Shown here piece by piece: positions 19,045 to 23,298 of a stretch of 26,956 nt of DNA. This stretch comes from a virus, in the IMG/VR virus record IMGVR_UViG_3300009509_000088, positions 1-26,956 of that record, one strand, 5' to 3'. Within the stretch, counting starts at the first letter, position 1; each line of letters starts with the position of its first letter. The notes under the pieces are model-generated. The model searched no databases, was not told the DNA's origin, and saw nothing but the letters and a program-made list of their open reading frames with translations. The position numbers were made by a program, and so were the translations under genes.

Positions 19045-20850
19045 CTAATATTTTGTATCATAAAATTCAATTATTTCTGTTATTGATCTTCCTACTTCAC
19101 CTGCAATAATTGACGCATCTTCCTTGGAAGCATTGCTTAAATCTTGGTTTATCGTTATTGATACCCCCGATAATGCTTTCTCTGCTCTTTGACCCATTGT
19201 ATACTTGCCGCCAAAAAATTGTTTATCTAAAAATGTATTAGCAGTATTAATTGGACTAGTTATAGCTCCACCTATATGCGGTAGTTCTCTCATCCACGCA
19301 GGAACAGTTTCTTTAAGTTCAGAGCCAACTTTACCCCACAATCTTTTATTCACGCCCTGGGTCATGCTTGCAATCGGACCTAACACAGGTATTTTTTTAA
19401 ACCAAGCATCAACTTTATTTATGCCTTTTGGTTTTTCATCATATTCAGTAGAAGCTAACCCATATTGATTCATATAATCTTCATATGTCATTTCACCTCT
19501 TCTAACTTTATCAAACATCCCTATTTTATATTTTTTCTCTGCTAATTCAAGAATGCCTTTGCCTTTTTGATATTGTCTATAATCACCAGTCAATAATCCG
19601 GCCATTATTGTGCTTATACCAATAAGAAGATCCTTAAGATATATTAGTTCAGTTTTTAAATCTTCAAAATTAGATTTTAACTTGCCGCCTAAAAATTTTT
19701 CATCAAACCATCCAGCAAGAGTTTTACCTTTCCATCCGGTAAGATATCTGTATAAACTATCTATTATGATTAAAAGACCTATAATGGAAGCTCCAATTAT
19801 TGTAGGCCATAAAGTTAATCCAGATTGGGCTATCCATATGGATTTAGCAAGACCCCACATTCCTTTTGTTATATATCCTAATGCAGTAGCAAATCCAAGA
19901 CCTATTATTGCAGACATTGTAATAAGCATTAATTTAAGCGCATTTTCTACTCCGCCAACGATATCGGAAAATAGATAAAATGATCTAACAACTTCAAGCA
20001 TTATGCCTACTATATCAGCAAGATATTTAATTAATTTCTTGAGAACATTACCAATTCTCTGTTGTATTATCTTCTGATTAACTTTTAACCATTCTAATGC
20101 TGTTCGTGCAATCTGCTTCATTACTGGTAAGGTTTCTTCACCTGTAAACATTACGATTTCTTTTACGTAATCTTTTATGTTTATAAAAATACCAAGTAAT
20201 GTTTTAGATTGCTCAAACATTAGGTTGTTAAATTTACCGCCAGCAGAAGTCATTCTTTTAAATGCTTCCTGAAACATCTCAAAAGATATTTTACGAGTAC
20301 GAACTAAATGCTGAATTACTTCACGACCCTTTCCGGTCATATCACTTAATGTTTTAACCAACGGCACACCAGCACGTCTTAAATTCTGTAATTCGTATCC
20401 GGTTAAATATCCTGCTGCCTGTACTTTACCAAAACTTAATGCTATTTGTTCAAGAGGAACACTGAGACCTGAAGCTACATCTCCTACCATTTTTAACTGC
20501 GGAAGTAAATCCTTAGCAGAAGATCCCATTCCCATAAGGATTCTGGCAGTACCAAGAACTCCAAATATTTCAAATGGAGTACGTCTTGCAAATTTAAACA
20601 ATCCGTCAAGAGTTTCTTTTGCTAAATCTGCGCTTCCAAGCATCGTAGTAAATGCTATTTTAATTTGCTCTAATTTAGCAGCTTCTTTGACAAATTTCCC
20701 AACAACAAAACCGCCGCCTGCTACAACAGCACTTAAGGCTATCATGCTCTTTTTAGCGATATTTATTCCATGATGAAAATCTCGCAGACCTCTATTATCT
20801 ACTAAAAATGCTAATCTAGCAAAAAGTGATCTTATCTGAAGGCTTCTCAT
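19045..20850 (-). CDS. Tape measure protein
   Basis: The 601-residue protein sets tail length and is ejected during infection. It has the typical N-terminal tape-measure block: LEQIKIAFTTMLGSADLAKE, FARRTPFEIFGVLGTARILM, FGKVQAAGYLTGYELQNLRR and GVPLVKTLSD. Hydrophobic segments lie at about 36-54, 305-328 and 348-366, as often seen for the part that enters the membrane. The rest is mostly helical. At the usual 1.5 angstrom per residue the tail would be about 90 nm, an inference. The ATG overlaps the stop of the frameshift extension as TAATG, so it depends on read-through of the chaperone gene for coupling. The length is short for the family, in line with a compact phage. Confidence 0.85.
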   Translation of the reverse strand: MRSLQIRSLFARLAFLVDNRGLRDFHHGINIAKKSMIALSAVVAGGGFVVGKFVKEAAKLEQIKIAFTTMLGSADLAKETLDGLFKFARRTPFEIFGVLGTARILMGMGSSAKDLLPQLKMVGDVASGLSVPLEQIALSFGKVQAAGYLTGYELQNLRRAGVPLVKTLSDMTGKGREVIQHLVRTRKISFEMFQEAFKRMTSAGGKFNNLMFEQSKTLLGIFINIKDYVKEIVMFTGEETLPVMKQIARTALEWLKVNQKIIQQRIGNVLKKLIKYLADIVGIMLEVVRSFYLFSDIVGGVENALKLMLITMSAIIGLGFATALGYITKGMWGLAKSIWIAQSGLTLWPTIIGASIIGLLIIIDSLYRYLTGWKGKTLAGWFDEKFLGGKLKSNFEDLKTELIYLKDLLIGISTIMAGLLTGDYRQYQKGKGILELAEKKYKIGMFDKVRRGEMTYEDYMNQYGLASTEYDEKPKGINKVDAWFKKIPVLGPIASMTQGVNKRLWGKVGSELKETVPAWMRELPHIGGAITSPINTANTFLDKQFFGGKYTMGQRAEKALSGVSITINQDLSNASKEDASIIAGEVGRSITEIIEFYDTKY

Positions 20851-21083
20851 TATTTACGTTTCTCTTGTTTTTTCCTGTAATATTCTTCTGCTTCAGCTTG
20901 TAAATCTAATGCTTCATGTGCATCGGCTAAAGTATTTATCGTCCAGTATCTATCTATTTCTTCATATGTTGCTATCTTCGCTAATACTGGACGCCAAATA
21001 TAAGTATCAATATTGATTATTTTAGGCTTGAATCCTTGGCTAGATCCCTTAGTCCCTCTATTACGCCTTTTCCGTCGAAAAAA
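20850..21083 (-). CDS. -1 frameshift extension of the tail assembly chaperone
   Basis: This frame has no ATG, GTG or TTG start that would give a sensible gene, yet it encodes a conserved-looking 75-residue sequence after the slip: PKIINIDTYIWRPVLAKIAT, then EEIDRYWTINTLADAHEALD and LQAEAEEYYRKKQEKRK. It is open back to the T TTT TTC heptamer at 21077-21083 in the overlapping chaperone gene. This is the layout of lambda G-GT and its equivalents in contractile phages, where a minority of ribosomes slip -1 and make a longer chaperone that recruits tape measure and tube. The full frameshift product would have 201 residues. It ends in TAA sharing its last base with the tape measure ATG. Confidence 0.8.
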   Translation of the reverse strand, partial: FFRRKRRNRGTKGSSQGFKPKIINIDTYIWRPVLAKIATYEEIDRYWTINTLADAHEALDLQAEAEEYYRKKQEKRK

Positions 21084-21454
21084 TCAGCATACTGCACCTC
21101 TAGTGAAGCGAAAACAACTTTAAATAAATGTTTGATTTTTCCAGTAAAGATGATATCAAAAGACTTTAAAACATCACCTTTGCCTTCATGAGTGACTTGA
21201 CTAAGAAGGGTATTAATCATAGATTGGACATTATCATTATCTAATCTCTCGCATAGTAACCTAGCCGCATCTCCCATATTTACATCTCTCTCTCCAACCT
21301 CCTCATCACCACCACACATTGAACCTATTGCTGGACCAATTAACTTTGTTATTTCAGTTAATAATGCCAGCGATTTCCGAGGGGAAAGATATGTAAAAAC
21401 ATAAGTTTCCCCGTCTATTGTTTTTCTAACTACATCAACTTGACTCCCCATCAT
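21017..21454 (-). CDS. Tail assembly chaperone (short form)
   Basis: The 145-residue protein is placed between tube and tape measure, where the tail assembly chaperone always lies. Early residues look like the family: a strand hairpin DVVRKTIDGETYVFTYLSPR, a mainly helical middle with GPAIGSMCGGDEE, and VQSMINTLLSQVTHEGKGDV. It is not part of the virion; it keeps tape measure protein soluble during assembly. AAGGAG precedes two consecutive ATGs (21454 and 21451), either of which could be used. The slippery site at 21077-21083 lies at codon 124-126, after which 0-frame ribosomes read 19 more codons to TAA. Confidence 0.8.
   Translation of the reverse strand: MMGSQVDVVRKTIDGETYVFTYLSPRKSLALLTEITKLIGPAIGSMCGGDEEVGERDVNMGDAARLLCERLDNDNVQSMINTLLSQVTHEGKGDVLKSFDIIFTGKIKHLFKVVFASLEVQYADFFDGKGVIEGLRDLAKDSSLK
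21077..21083 (-). promoter_or_regulatory. Slippery heptamer T TTT TTC for programmed -1 frameshifting
   Basis: In the chaperone frame the codons are GAT TTT TTC GAC, which gives the canonical X XXY YYZ heptamer T TTT TTC. Slipping one base back joins the frame that encodes the extension at 20850-21083, with no stop in between. I could not identify a convincing pseudoknot downstream; one weak AGGC/GCCT pairing exists. Confidence 0.75.
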
Positions 21455-21484
21455 AATCTCCTTGACTTAATTAATTGTTATTTA

Positions 21485-21925
21485 TTATTCTTCATAATTT
21501 TGCGAAGCTACATCGCTTGTAGATCCGCCAACCCAACCAACTGCTGGTCCTACGGATAATTTGCCTTTTATCATCCATTCTCTTGTTCCAGACTCTTTAG
21601 CGAACCCTAAATCAGCCATCTTTACAACGGTAGCAAGAGCCATGCTGCCAACGCTCGTTCCGTTATTATCTCTGACATCGCAAGGGAAATTTAATCCGGA
21701 TAGATACCATGCGCTAAGGATATCATTATCGGCAGAAGTTTGTGGAAGAGTGATTGTTATTGTTCCCAATCTATTAGAATTTTTAGTTCTTGTAGCTTCG
21801 CCTTGGGTGCCTGATGTAAATGTCCAAGCATCCTCATCGAAAACTACGGTAACTTCATCCCAGTTATCTAATTTTGTTATCCCAAGAGTAATAGAAACTT
21901 GGGTTGGATCATAAGTTTTACTCAT
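21485..21925 (-). CDS. Tail tube protein (DUF3277 type)
   Basis: The 146-residue protein forms the inner tube rings. It has the family signature: start KTYDPTQVSITLG, then VVFDEDAWTFTSGTQGEATR, TKNSNRLGTITITLPQTSAD, NDILSAWYLSGL, and AKESGTREWMIKGKLSVG near the C-terminus. The order sheath then tube is standard. AAGGAG lies upstream of the ATG with good spacing, consistent with a highly made structural protein. The length is normal for this family. Confidence 0.85.
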   Translation of the reverse strand: MSKTYDPTQVSITLGITKLDNWDEVTVVFDEDAWTFTSGTQGEATRTKNSNRLGTITITLPQTSADNDILSAWYLSGLNFPCDVRDNNGTSVGSMALATVVKMADLGFAKESGTREWMIKGKLSVGPAVGWVGGSTSDVASQNYEE

Positions 21926-21942: not shown

Positions 21943-23298
21943 TTATGCTGCGCTAATCTTGCCAGTTATTCCAACTTTATGAATTGCCCCTGCATATGTA
22001 GCGGAGAATGTAATGCCGTTAAGATATCGTATACTCTTTTCTCCGGCAGGAATATTTGCTAATTTTGGTAATGTTATTACAATGGAACCTTCTTGGAGTA
22101 AGCCAACATCGACCCCTCTATTTAGCCAATATGCTACAATTGCACCTACTTGGGCTATCCCAGGAGTCGTAAATGGAACTTTATCGGAATTGTATAATAA
22201 CCTAAAAATATCCGTTGACATATTTACTTGAAGCCAATCAGTCCCTCTCATTATATCTATGTATTCACCAGAAGCTACAACGCCTTCAGAAGTTATCATA
22301 TTGAGCCCTGCTACAGTCTCATACACATTACAGTTCTTAGCTATTGCATAACCTTTTTCTGAAGCAGTTAATGTATCAGGCGTAATTCCAGTTATTGTCT
22401 TAAACTTCCATGTAATTGAGCCAGGATCTTTGGGAGCTTGTCCACCAATTAATCCGGCAATTGGATAGTTATCTTCATCTTCACTATAAAGCAAGAATGT
22501 CCTGTCGTATGCTGCATCTTGCAAGTCGGAAGCTGTATCGTCTGTTGCAGAAGTAATTATTGCAGCTTCATCAGTACTAACACCCATTAATTTTAAATCA
22601 GCTTCAACTAAAGCTGCTAATGCTTGTATATCAGCGCTATCTCCGACACCATTCAACATTGGAACTAAAAAATAAAAATCATTATCTTCTGCCGTGGTTG
22701 CTGCATATGCTTCAGCCCAAGTCTGTGTTGCTTGACCATTCTGTAATGTCTCTATTGTTACACTCGTAACTCCCGTTAAGCTACTTACATCTACAGATTC
22801 TATTTCCGTAAAACCTGTACTTGCATCTGCTCCATCCCACTCAATTGTTATTCCCGAAGCTCCAGCATCCATTGTTCCTGTTACAGTTACACTCGTTATA
22901 CCAGTTAATGCTTCGATTGCTGTTTCTATTGCACTGGTTGCCGCATCATAAGCTATTGCCCCAGTCGTAAGACCGTTCCATGTTATAGTCCATGTTCCAG
23001 CAGTTGCATTAGCATTTGCAGTAATTTTCTGTTGCTCGTTCGTGTCAACGCCTTTTCTCGCAATTTTAAATTGTTCAGGGCTTAATTCTTGACTCATATG
23101 TTTTAACGCAGCAATATACAACGCATCAGTAGTTAAAAATCCATCAGTTAACATATCTGCTGGATCAGTATATGTTTTTACCGTATCTGGGATACAGGTA
23201 TAAGGTCCGAGAAACAGCGTTGTTCCAAAGCCTGCTTGCGTAACCTTGGCTGTCTCTTTGGTTATATTTAAAACAACGAAATCTTCTATTTGAGACAT
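21943..23298 (-). CDS. Tail sheath protein (DUF3383 type) with inserted beta domain
   Basis: The sheath contracts to drive the tube through the envelope. The 451-residue protein has the DUF3383-type pattern: start IEDFVVLNITKETAKVTQAG, FGTTLFLGPY, then DALYIAALKHMSQELSPEQF and KIARKG; after the insertion, ATTAEDNDFYFLVPML, DRTFLLYSEDEDNYPIAGLI, GGQAPKDPGSITWKFK and the C-terminal RYLNGITFSATYAGAIHKVG. Residues about 90-187 are an insertion (TAGTWTITWNGLTTGAIAYD, IETAIEALTGITSVTVTG, GITIEWDGAD) of the same type as the two in baseplate J, probably exposed on the outer sheath surface. GGAGG precedes the ATG. Confidence 0.87.
   Translation of the reverse strand: MSQIEDFVVLNITKETAKVTQAGFGTTLFLGPYTCIPDTVKTYTDPADMLTDGFLTTDALYIAALKHMSQELSPEQFKIARKGVDTNEQQKITANANATAGTWTITWNGLTTGAIAYDAATSAIETAIEALTGITSVTVTGTMDAGASGITIEWDGADASTGFTEIESVDVSSLTGVTSVTIETLQNGQATQTWAEAYAATTAEDNDFYFLVPMLNGVGDSADIQALAALVEADLKLMGVSTDEAAIITSATDDTASDLQDAAYDRTFLLYSEDEDNYPIAGLIGGQAPKDPGSITWKFKTITGITPDTLTASEKGYAIAKNCNVYETVAGLNMITSEGVVASGEYIDIMRGTDWLQVNMSTDIFRLLYNSDKVPFTTPGIAQVGAIVAYWLNRGVDVGLLQEGSIVITLPKLANIPAGEKSIRYLNGITFSATYAGAIHKVGITGKISAA
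22738..23031 (-). other. Inserted small beta domain in the tail sheath
   Basis: This codes for about 98 residues between the N-terminal sheath strand and the sheath core. Motifs in order: GTWTITWNGLTTGAIAYDAA, AIETAIEALTGITSVTVTG, ITIEWDGAD, and SLTGVTSVTIETLQNG. It matches the copies in baseplate J (14279-14551 and 15014-15304). Confidence 0.65.

Follow-up and report, generated by a model that had tools for sequence, protein, structure and literature searches.

The question raised by this locus is whether the tail assembly chaperone of a virus ends where its first reading frame ends, or whether a second part of it is encoded in another frame that gene callers drop. In the 26,956-nt stretch of viral DNA analysed here (the window), the original prediction placed a programmed −1 frameshift at the end of the chaperone gene, on a T TTT TTC heptamer. 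Judging from comparative sequence analysis, we consider, with a probability of about 0.93, that a programmed −1 ribosomal frameshift makes two forms of this chaperone. The features that bear on the question are as follows.

21943..23298, minus strand: tail sheath (DUF3383); PF11863 E 1.5e-32, phrog_205 tail sheath E 2.9e-90
21485..21925, minus strand: tail tube-like structural protein (KPP10 ORF10 family), directly upstream of the chaperone; PF11681 E 1.1e-5, phrog_280 E 3.6e-26
21458..21463, minus strand: AAGGAG, probable ribosome-binding site of the chaperone gene, read in the sequence
21017..21454, minus strand: tail assembly chaperone, the gpG-like short form of 145 aa by standard translation; PF21822 Phage_TAC_15 E 6.8e-20, phrog_1613 tail assembly chaperone E 2e-19
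21095..21100, minus strand: GAGGTG, Shine-Dalgarno-like sequence inside the gene, 11 nt upstream of the heptamer and proposed to stimulate the −1 slip; pairing enrichment and a shared GAG GTG
21077..21083, minus strand: slippery heptamer T TTT TTC in X XXY YYZ phase, read in the sequence and in phase in relatives
20850..21083, minus strand: −1 frame, T-type C-terminal extension (201-aa fusion product predicted); phrog_4364 E 1e-5, dN/dS, helix model
19045..20850, minus strand: tape measure protein, with ATG 20850-20848 overlapping the stop of the extension; Pfam TMP_3 E 1.2e-15, phrog_9959

Along the minus strand, sheath, tube-like protein, chaperone, extension and tape measure follow one another in this order, and the presence of a DUF3383 tail sheath gene indicates a contractile tail. 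"Tube" is a probable label for the product of 21485..21925, based on its position and on how the gene at the corresponding place is annotated in Pam3. The chaperone was recognized as such in the original prediction, and Pfam and PHROGs both agree, with a Phage_TAC_15 score of 72.3 bits against a curated cut-off of 22. Chaperone and extension lie between the tail tube and tape-measure genes, which is the placement of the short and frameshift-extended chaperones of lambda G-GT, where the −1 slip occurs near the 3′ end (PMC5009743).

Near the end of the chaperone gene the 0 frame reads GAG GTG CAG TAT GCT GAT TTT TTC GAC GGA, with the heptamer in frame at 21083-21077 as had been claimed, and it stops at TAA 21019-21017. 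In the −1 frame, TGA 21086-21084 stands directly before the heptamer, so that this frame is open only from the heptamer onward; it runs for 75 codons beyond the heptamer and is closed by TAA 20852-20850, which overlaps the ATG of the tape measure. The frame is thus stop-free up to the tape-measure start, as predicted, and it has no conventional start of its own: ATG, GTG and TTG are all absent from its 77 codons, and the only near-cognates present are ATA, ATC and ATT, of which ATA and ATC lie near the 0-frame stop. The predicted product length of 201 residues is also correct (126 + 75), provided that the first of two adjacent ATGs is used. The heptamer in the window is by itself weak evidence, since AT-rich codon use (Asp GAT 85%, Phe TTT 83% in this genome) mostly yields GAT TTT TTY for Asp-Phe-Phe. 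Over the whole window TTTTTTC is not over-represented, with 8 matches against 14.5 expected. Since the heptamer is unremarkable in the window alone, relatives were examined in two ways, by the chaperone and by the extension.

The chaperone-based search, made by tblastn and pattern scans, reached relatives down to about 26% protein identity; tblastn matched 66 records in one search and 19 in another, 11 records were taken up, and a further pattern scan returned only six viral contigs already known. TTTTTTC was in phase in 6/6 viral contigs from this search and also in Rhizobium, Hafnia and Pam3 records, and T TTT TTT was found in Erebus and ctfzr933. For the extension-based search, the motif DAHEALDL was back-translated and looked up in contigs from viruses and genomes, the slip site playing no part in the query. 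This gave at least 179 matches (60 viral, at least 119 from genomes), and a chaperone ORF was found upstream in 51 of the matches listed. Among these 51, the extension was always in the −1 frame relative to the chaperone, both parts never shared a single frame (0/51), and 49 carried an in-phase T-run heptamer, the other two carrying G GGA AAG and C CCT TTT. These two loci, L066:2318-2563 and L070:1099-1344, have the T-run replaced by canonical heptamers and keep the −1 extension; G GGA AAG is the heptamer in phase in lambda G. At 128 of the matches listed no chaperone ORF was found by profile: 114 had a longer open frame without the WR motif conserved in the extensions, and 14 were looked at, of which L040 and L060 are extensions cut by the locus end, L113 is an extension, and 11 look unrelated. 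L113:7100-7500 is an extension fragment in a Labrenzia genome contig; it adjoins unrelated sequence, that genome has no PF21822 match, and the fragment is probably a prophage remnant.

The window, 13 tblastn loci and 51 motif-found loci made up a set of 65, which formed 45 clusters at 85% identity; L014, from the same phage as L027, and L019, whose chaperone is identical to that of L017, are not in the set, and L001/L002 are the same contigs as L010/L011. Slip sites were searched in phase 2 over the last 140 nt of the gene, and T-runs were counted separately in all phases. A T-run of at least six was present in this stretch in 41 of the 45 clusters and lay in the same phase in 41/41, with lengths of 6, 7 and 8 in 28, 7 and 6 clusters. 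The four clusters without one are L066, L070, L016 (KPP10) and L018 (Otagovirus), and the last two show GTTTTT. At the aligned Phe-Phe, NNT TTT TTY was used in 39/39 clusters against 7.1 expected from the codon use of each locus, in 32/32 against 3.4 expected in loci above 50% GC, and in 13/13 against 3.4 expected after collapsing to below 50% identity. This site was first picked knowing the T-run, and a repeat in which the protein alignment defined the column gave the same result. Before Phe-Phe the residue may be D, S, P, T or G, but T is in every case the third base of its codon. Leu has taken the place of the second Phe in L048 and L031, yet the heptamer is retained as T TTT TTA. Because of this conservation in relatives, T TTT TTC is far more than a chance occurrence. 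As in lambda G-GT, the 0 and −1 frames of the family overlap around a conserved in-phase X XXY YYZ heptamer.

The extension itself evolves as a protein. Between the window and its nearest relative, L010, the 51 codons compared beyond the 0-frame stop gave a dN of 0.15 and a saturated dS, which is protein-level selection in the −1 frame. It had been described as acidic and helical: the helical part held, with three high-confidence helices modelled by AlphaFold2 from about residue 25 of 77, whereas the 75 residues contain 18 K/R against 11 D/E and are basic. When the extensions of 28 of the 45 cluster representatives were aligned (named phage records left out), W, R, A and L proved invariant and D-A-H-E-A-L-D-L nearly so. 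The PHROG family phrog_4364, labelled as of unknown function, was matched by 27 of the 28, and for most of them this match is not independent of the search, because they were found via part of the DAHEALDL motif; the window's own match, at E 1e-5, is independent. We propose that phrog_4364 is the T-type domain of these chaperones. The Pfam family DUF6889, a term not found in the literature searched, was weakly matched by 7 of the 28 and perhaps also covers this domain; the extension of the window had no Pfam match. Its sequence matched no solved structure (best E 0.27), and its model matched no fold in BFVD at E<=0.001.

Upstream of the heptamer, the analysis pointed to a second signal. Pairing with the anti-Shine-Dalgarno was computed to an assumed 16S 3′ end, which may not be that of the host. 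Over the 45 clusters, 8-mers ending 4-14 nt before the heptamer paired better than their synonymous versions, generated according to local codon use (z −3.4 to −5.8), and the rest of the 60 nt upstream gave z between −2.0 and +2.6. The mean best pairing was −6.5 versus −4.1 kcal/mol (z −6.8, 0/2000 draws) when the 45 clusters were treated as independent despite shared descent, and z was −4.9 over 16 clusters below 45% identity under the same assumption. Glu codons at the site were GAG in 22 of 27 cases against 11.4 expected, compared to 118 of 252 against 113.3 expected elsewhere in the same genes. GAG GTG is shared by the window and its AT-rich relatives L010, L003 and L004, where GTG makes up 0-9% of Val codons; the observed pairing strength was reached by 127, 366, 111 and 9 of 5000 shuffles for the window, L010, L003 and L004, respectively. 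The element is common and not universal, since pairing fell below its own null median in 32 of 45 clusters and did not in 13, and L006, L031, L048, L080, L017 and L070 show little or no upstream pairing. At 40-46 nt before the heptamer, pairing was weaker than in synonymous shuffles (z about +2.5, 45 clusters), which is perhaps an avoidance of competing sites.

The Shine-Dalgarno stimulators of −1 frameshifts in E. coli dnaX and IS elements lie 9-14 nt from the slip site (PMC5009743), and at 11 nt GAGGTG falls within this spacing; it probably helps the slip as a stimulator. dnaX also has a downstream hairpin (PMC3711429), whereas simple folding of the 60 nt from +5 after the heptamer found no such stable hairpin in the window (z −0.38), with a mean z of −0.56 over 45 clusters and values below −2 in 6 of them. 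The pseudoknot suggested earlier for this position did not appear either, in the window or in the 45 clusters, by the same simple folding, and the Shine-Dalgarno-like signal is the better-supported stimulator of the two. Ribosome-binding-site interference is a general factor in the frameshift predictor of PMC10885494. The available portions of PMC10885494, PMC3711429 and PMC5009743 contain no description of a Shine-Dalgarno-like stimulator at a tail chaperone site, and the GAGGTG element upstream of the chaperone slip site is new as far as the literature searched reaches.

These data also allow other origins of the two-frame arrangement to be weighed. The extension could be a small gene in its own right, with ribosomes re-initiating past the 0-frame stop at a start of its own, which in the window would be a near-cognate ATA, ATC or ATT. 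The closeness of ATA and ATC to that stop would fit this, as would the separate CDS given to the extension in some annotations (KPP10 ORF14, phiPsa374 gp148, Hafnia phage Zyzzx 119). However, the foreseen objection that homologues might encode the extension from their own start codon finds no support, since 21 of 42 clusters, the window included, have no ATG, GTG or TTG ahead of the conserved WR motif, and where a start exists, a ribosome-binding site is mostly absent. Re-initiation also leaves unexplained the −1 phase in 51/51 of the matches listed with a chaperone upstream, the opening of the −1 frame back to the slip site, and the in-phase T-runs in GC-rich genomes, and we regard it as extremely unlikely.

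Slippage of RNA polymerase on the T-run, giving mRNAs one base shorter, is highly unlikely as well. A homopolymer run is present, with 7 or 8 Ts in some relatives, but all 41 of 41 runs begin in the same codon phase, which is needed for tandem tRNA slippage and not for the polymerase, L066 and L070 hold X XXY YYZ heptamers without any T-run, and the Shine-Dalgarno-like signal upstream speaks for the ribosome. Runs of six bases are short for polymerase slippage. Two frames differing by one base would likewise be expected if the chaperone gene had formerly been one frame and was broken by mutation or sequencing error. The chance of this is negligible given the same arrangement in 45 clusters of independent records, the lack of a single case among the 51 listed matches with both parts in one frame, and a dN far below dS in the extension. 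A base error in the T-run, which had been raised as a possible flaw, is ruled out for the family because so many independent records show the same arrangement.

A programmed −1 ribosomal frameshift is well supported here as one of a known kind, lambda G-GT-like and already published for related phages. The predicted likeness to lambda G-GT was borne out, both in the gene order and in the slip site and −1 phase, which are kept in relatives to about 26% identity. Lambda, P2 and many tailed phages use a −1 chaperone frameshift (PMC5009743). The lambda G heptamer is G GGA AAG instead of T TTT TTC, and in the 22 nt upstream of it no Shine-Dalgarno-like pairing is stronger than −4 kcal/mol. P2 E/E′ (NC_001895), from a contractile phage, has an in-phase T TTT TTG that precedes the stop by 25 nt, an annotated −1 frameshift, and an extension that overlaps the tape-measure start as in the window; AAGGTGG lies about 4 nt before its heptamer, whereas GAGGTG of the window lies at 11 nt, and the P2 chaperone did not match the window chaperone in the searches made. 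Related phages share the gene order and a −1 frame open through to the tape measure, and a conserved −1 programmed frameshift was reported in December 2025 for Vandenendeviridae (Adele and relatives) and, from alignment, for Andersonviridae (PMC12846349). The window chaperone matches KPP10 and phiPsa374 by tblastn, and both show a GTTTTT site, the Vandenendeviridae motif (PMC12846349); in contrast, the window reads GATTTTTTC, with T TTT TTC after GA. In the available text of PMC12846349, RHEph04/Erebus-type and Pam3-type phages appear only as two tree roots, and a Shine-Dalgarno-like element is not mentioned. No paper on a frameshift in DUF3383 phages was found in the literature searched.

Under the frameshift reading, most ribosomes would end at 21017 and release the short form of 145 residues. 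In a minority, GAGGTG (21100-21095) would pair with the 3′ end of 16S rRNA and so pause the ribosome or pull it back. These ribosomes would slip one base on T TTT TTC and continue in the −1 frame, so that a basic linker and a small domain of three helices would be appended and the product would reach 201 residues. If the two forms act as lambda gpG and gpGT do, numerous short copies would coat the tape measure and few long copies would bring in the tail tube protein, neither form staying in the virion. We think it likely that contractile phages of a whole lineage, which takes in Pam3, phages of Rhizobium and Aminobacter and many uncultured phages, drive their chaperone frameshift with an internal Shine-Dalgarno-like sequence and T TTT TTY, without downstream RNA structure and kept against strong codon bias, so that a dnaX-like stimulator would operate in tail assembly. 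With the internal element, the proportion of the two chaperone forms in these phages has a simple explanation that can be tested.

The analysis supplies the missing half of the tail chaperone, and it adds a measured conservation, a likely stimulator of Shine-Dalgarno-like sequence, and a name for a domain so far without annotation. The expectation that annotation by open frames would miss the extension agrees with the Pam3, RHph_TM26 and RHEph04 annotations, none of which has a CDS for it. Among the records left out, L019 (OK283618.1) is labelled Listeria phage LPML1 and classed in Ounavirinae; its chaperone is identical to that of Hafnia phage Zyzzx (L017, MW749004.1), and its host label may be wrong. 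Elsewhere in the window, on the plus strand, positions 55-1770 encode a 571-residue protein, a putative ribonucleotide reductase by its motifs, and positions 2055-2561 encode a 168-residue protein whose start presumably resembles RuvC/RNase H-fold resolvases.
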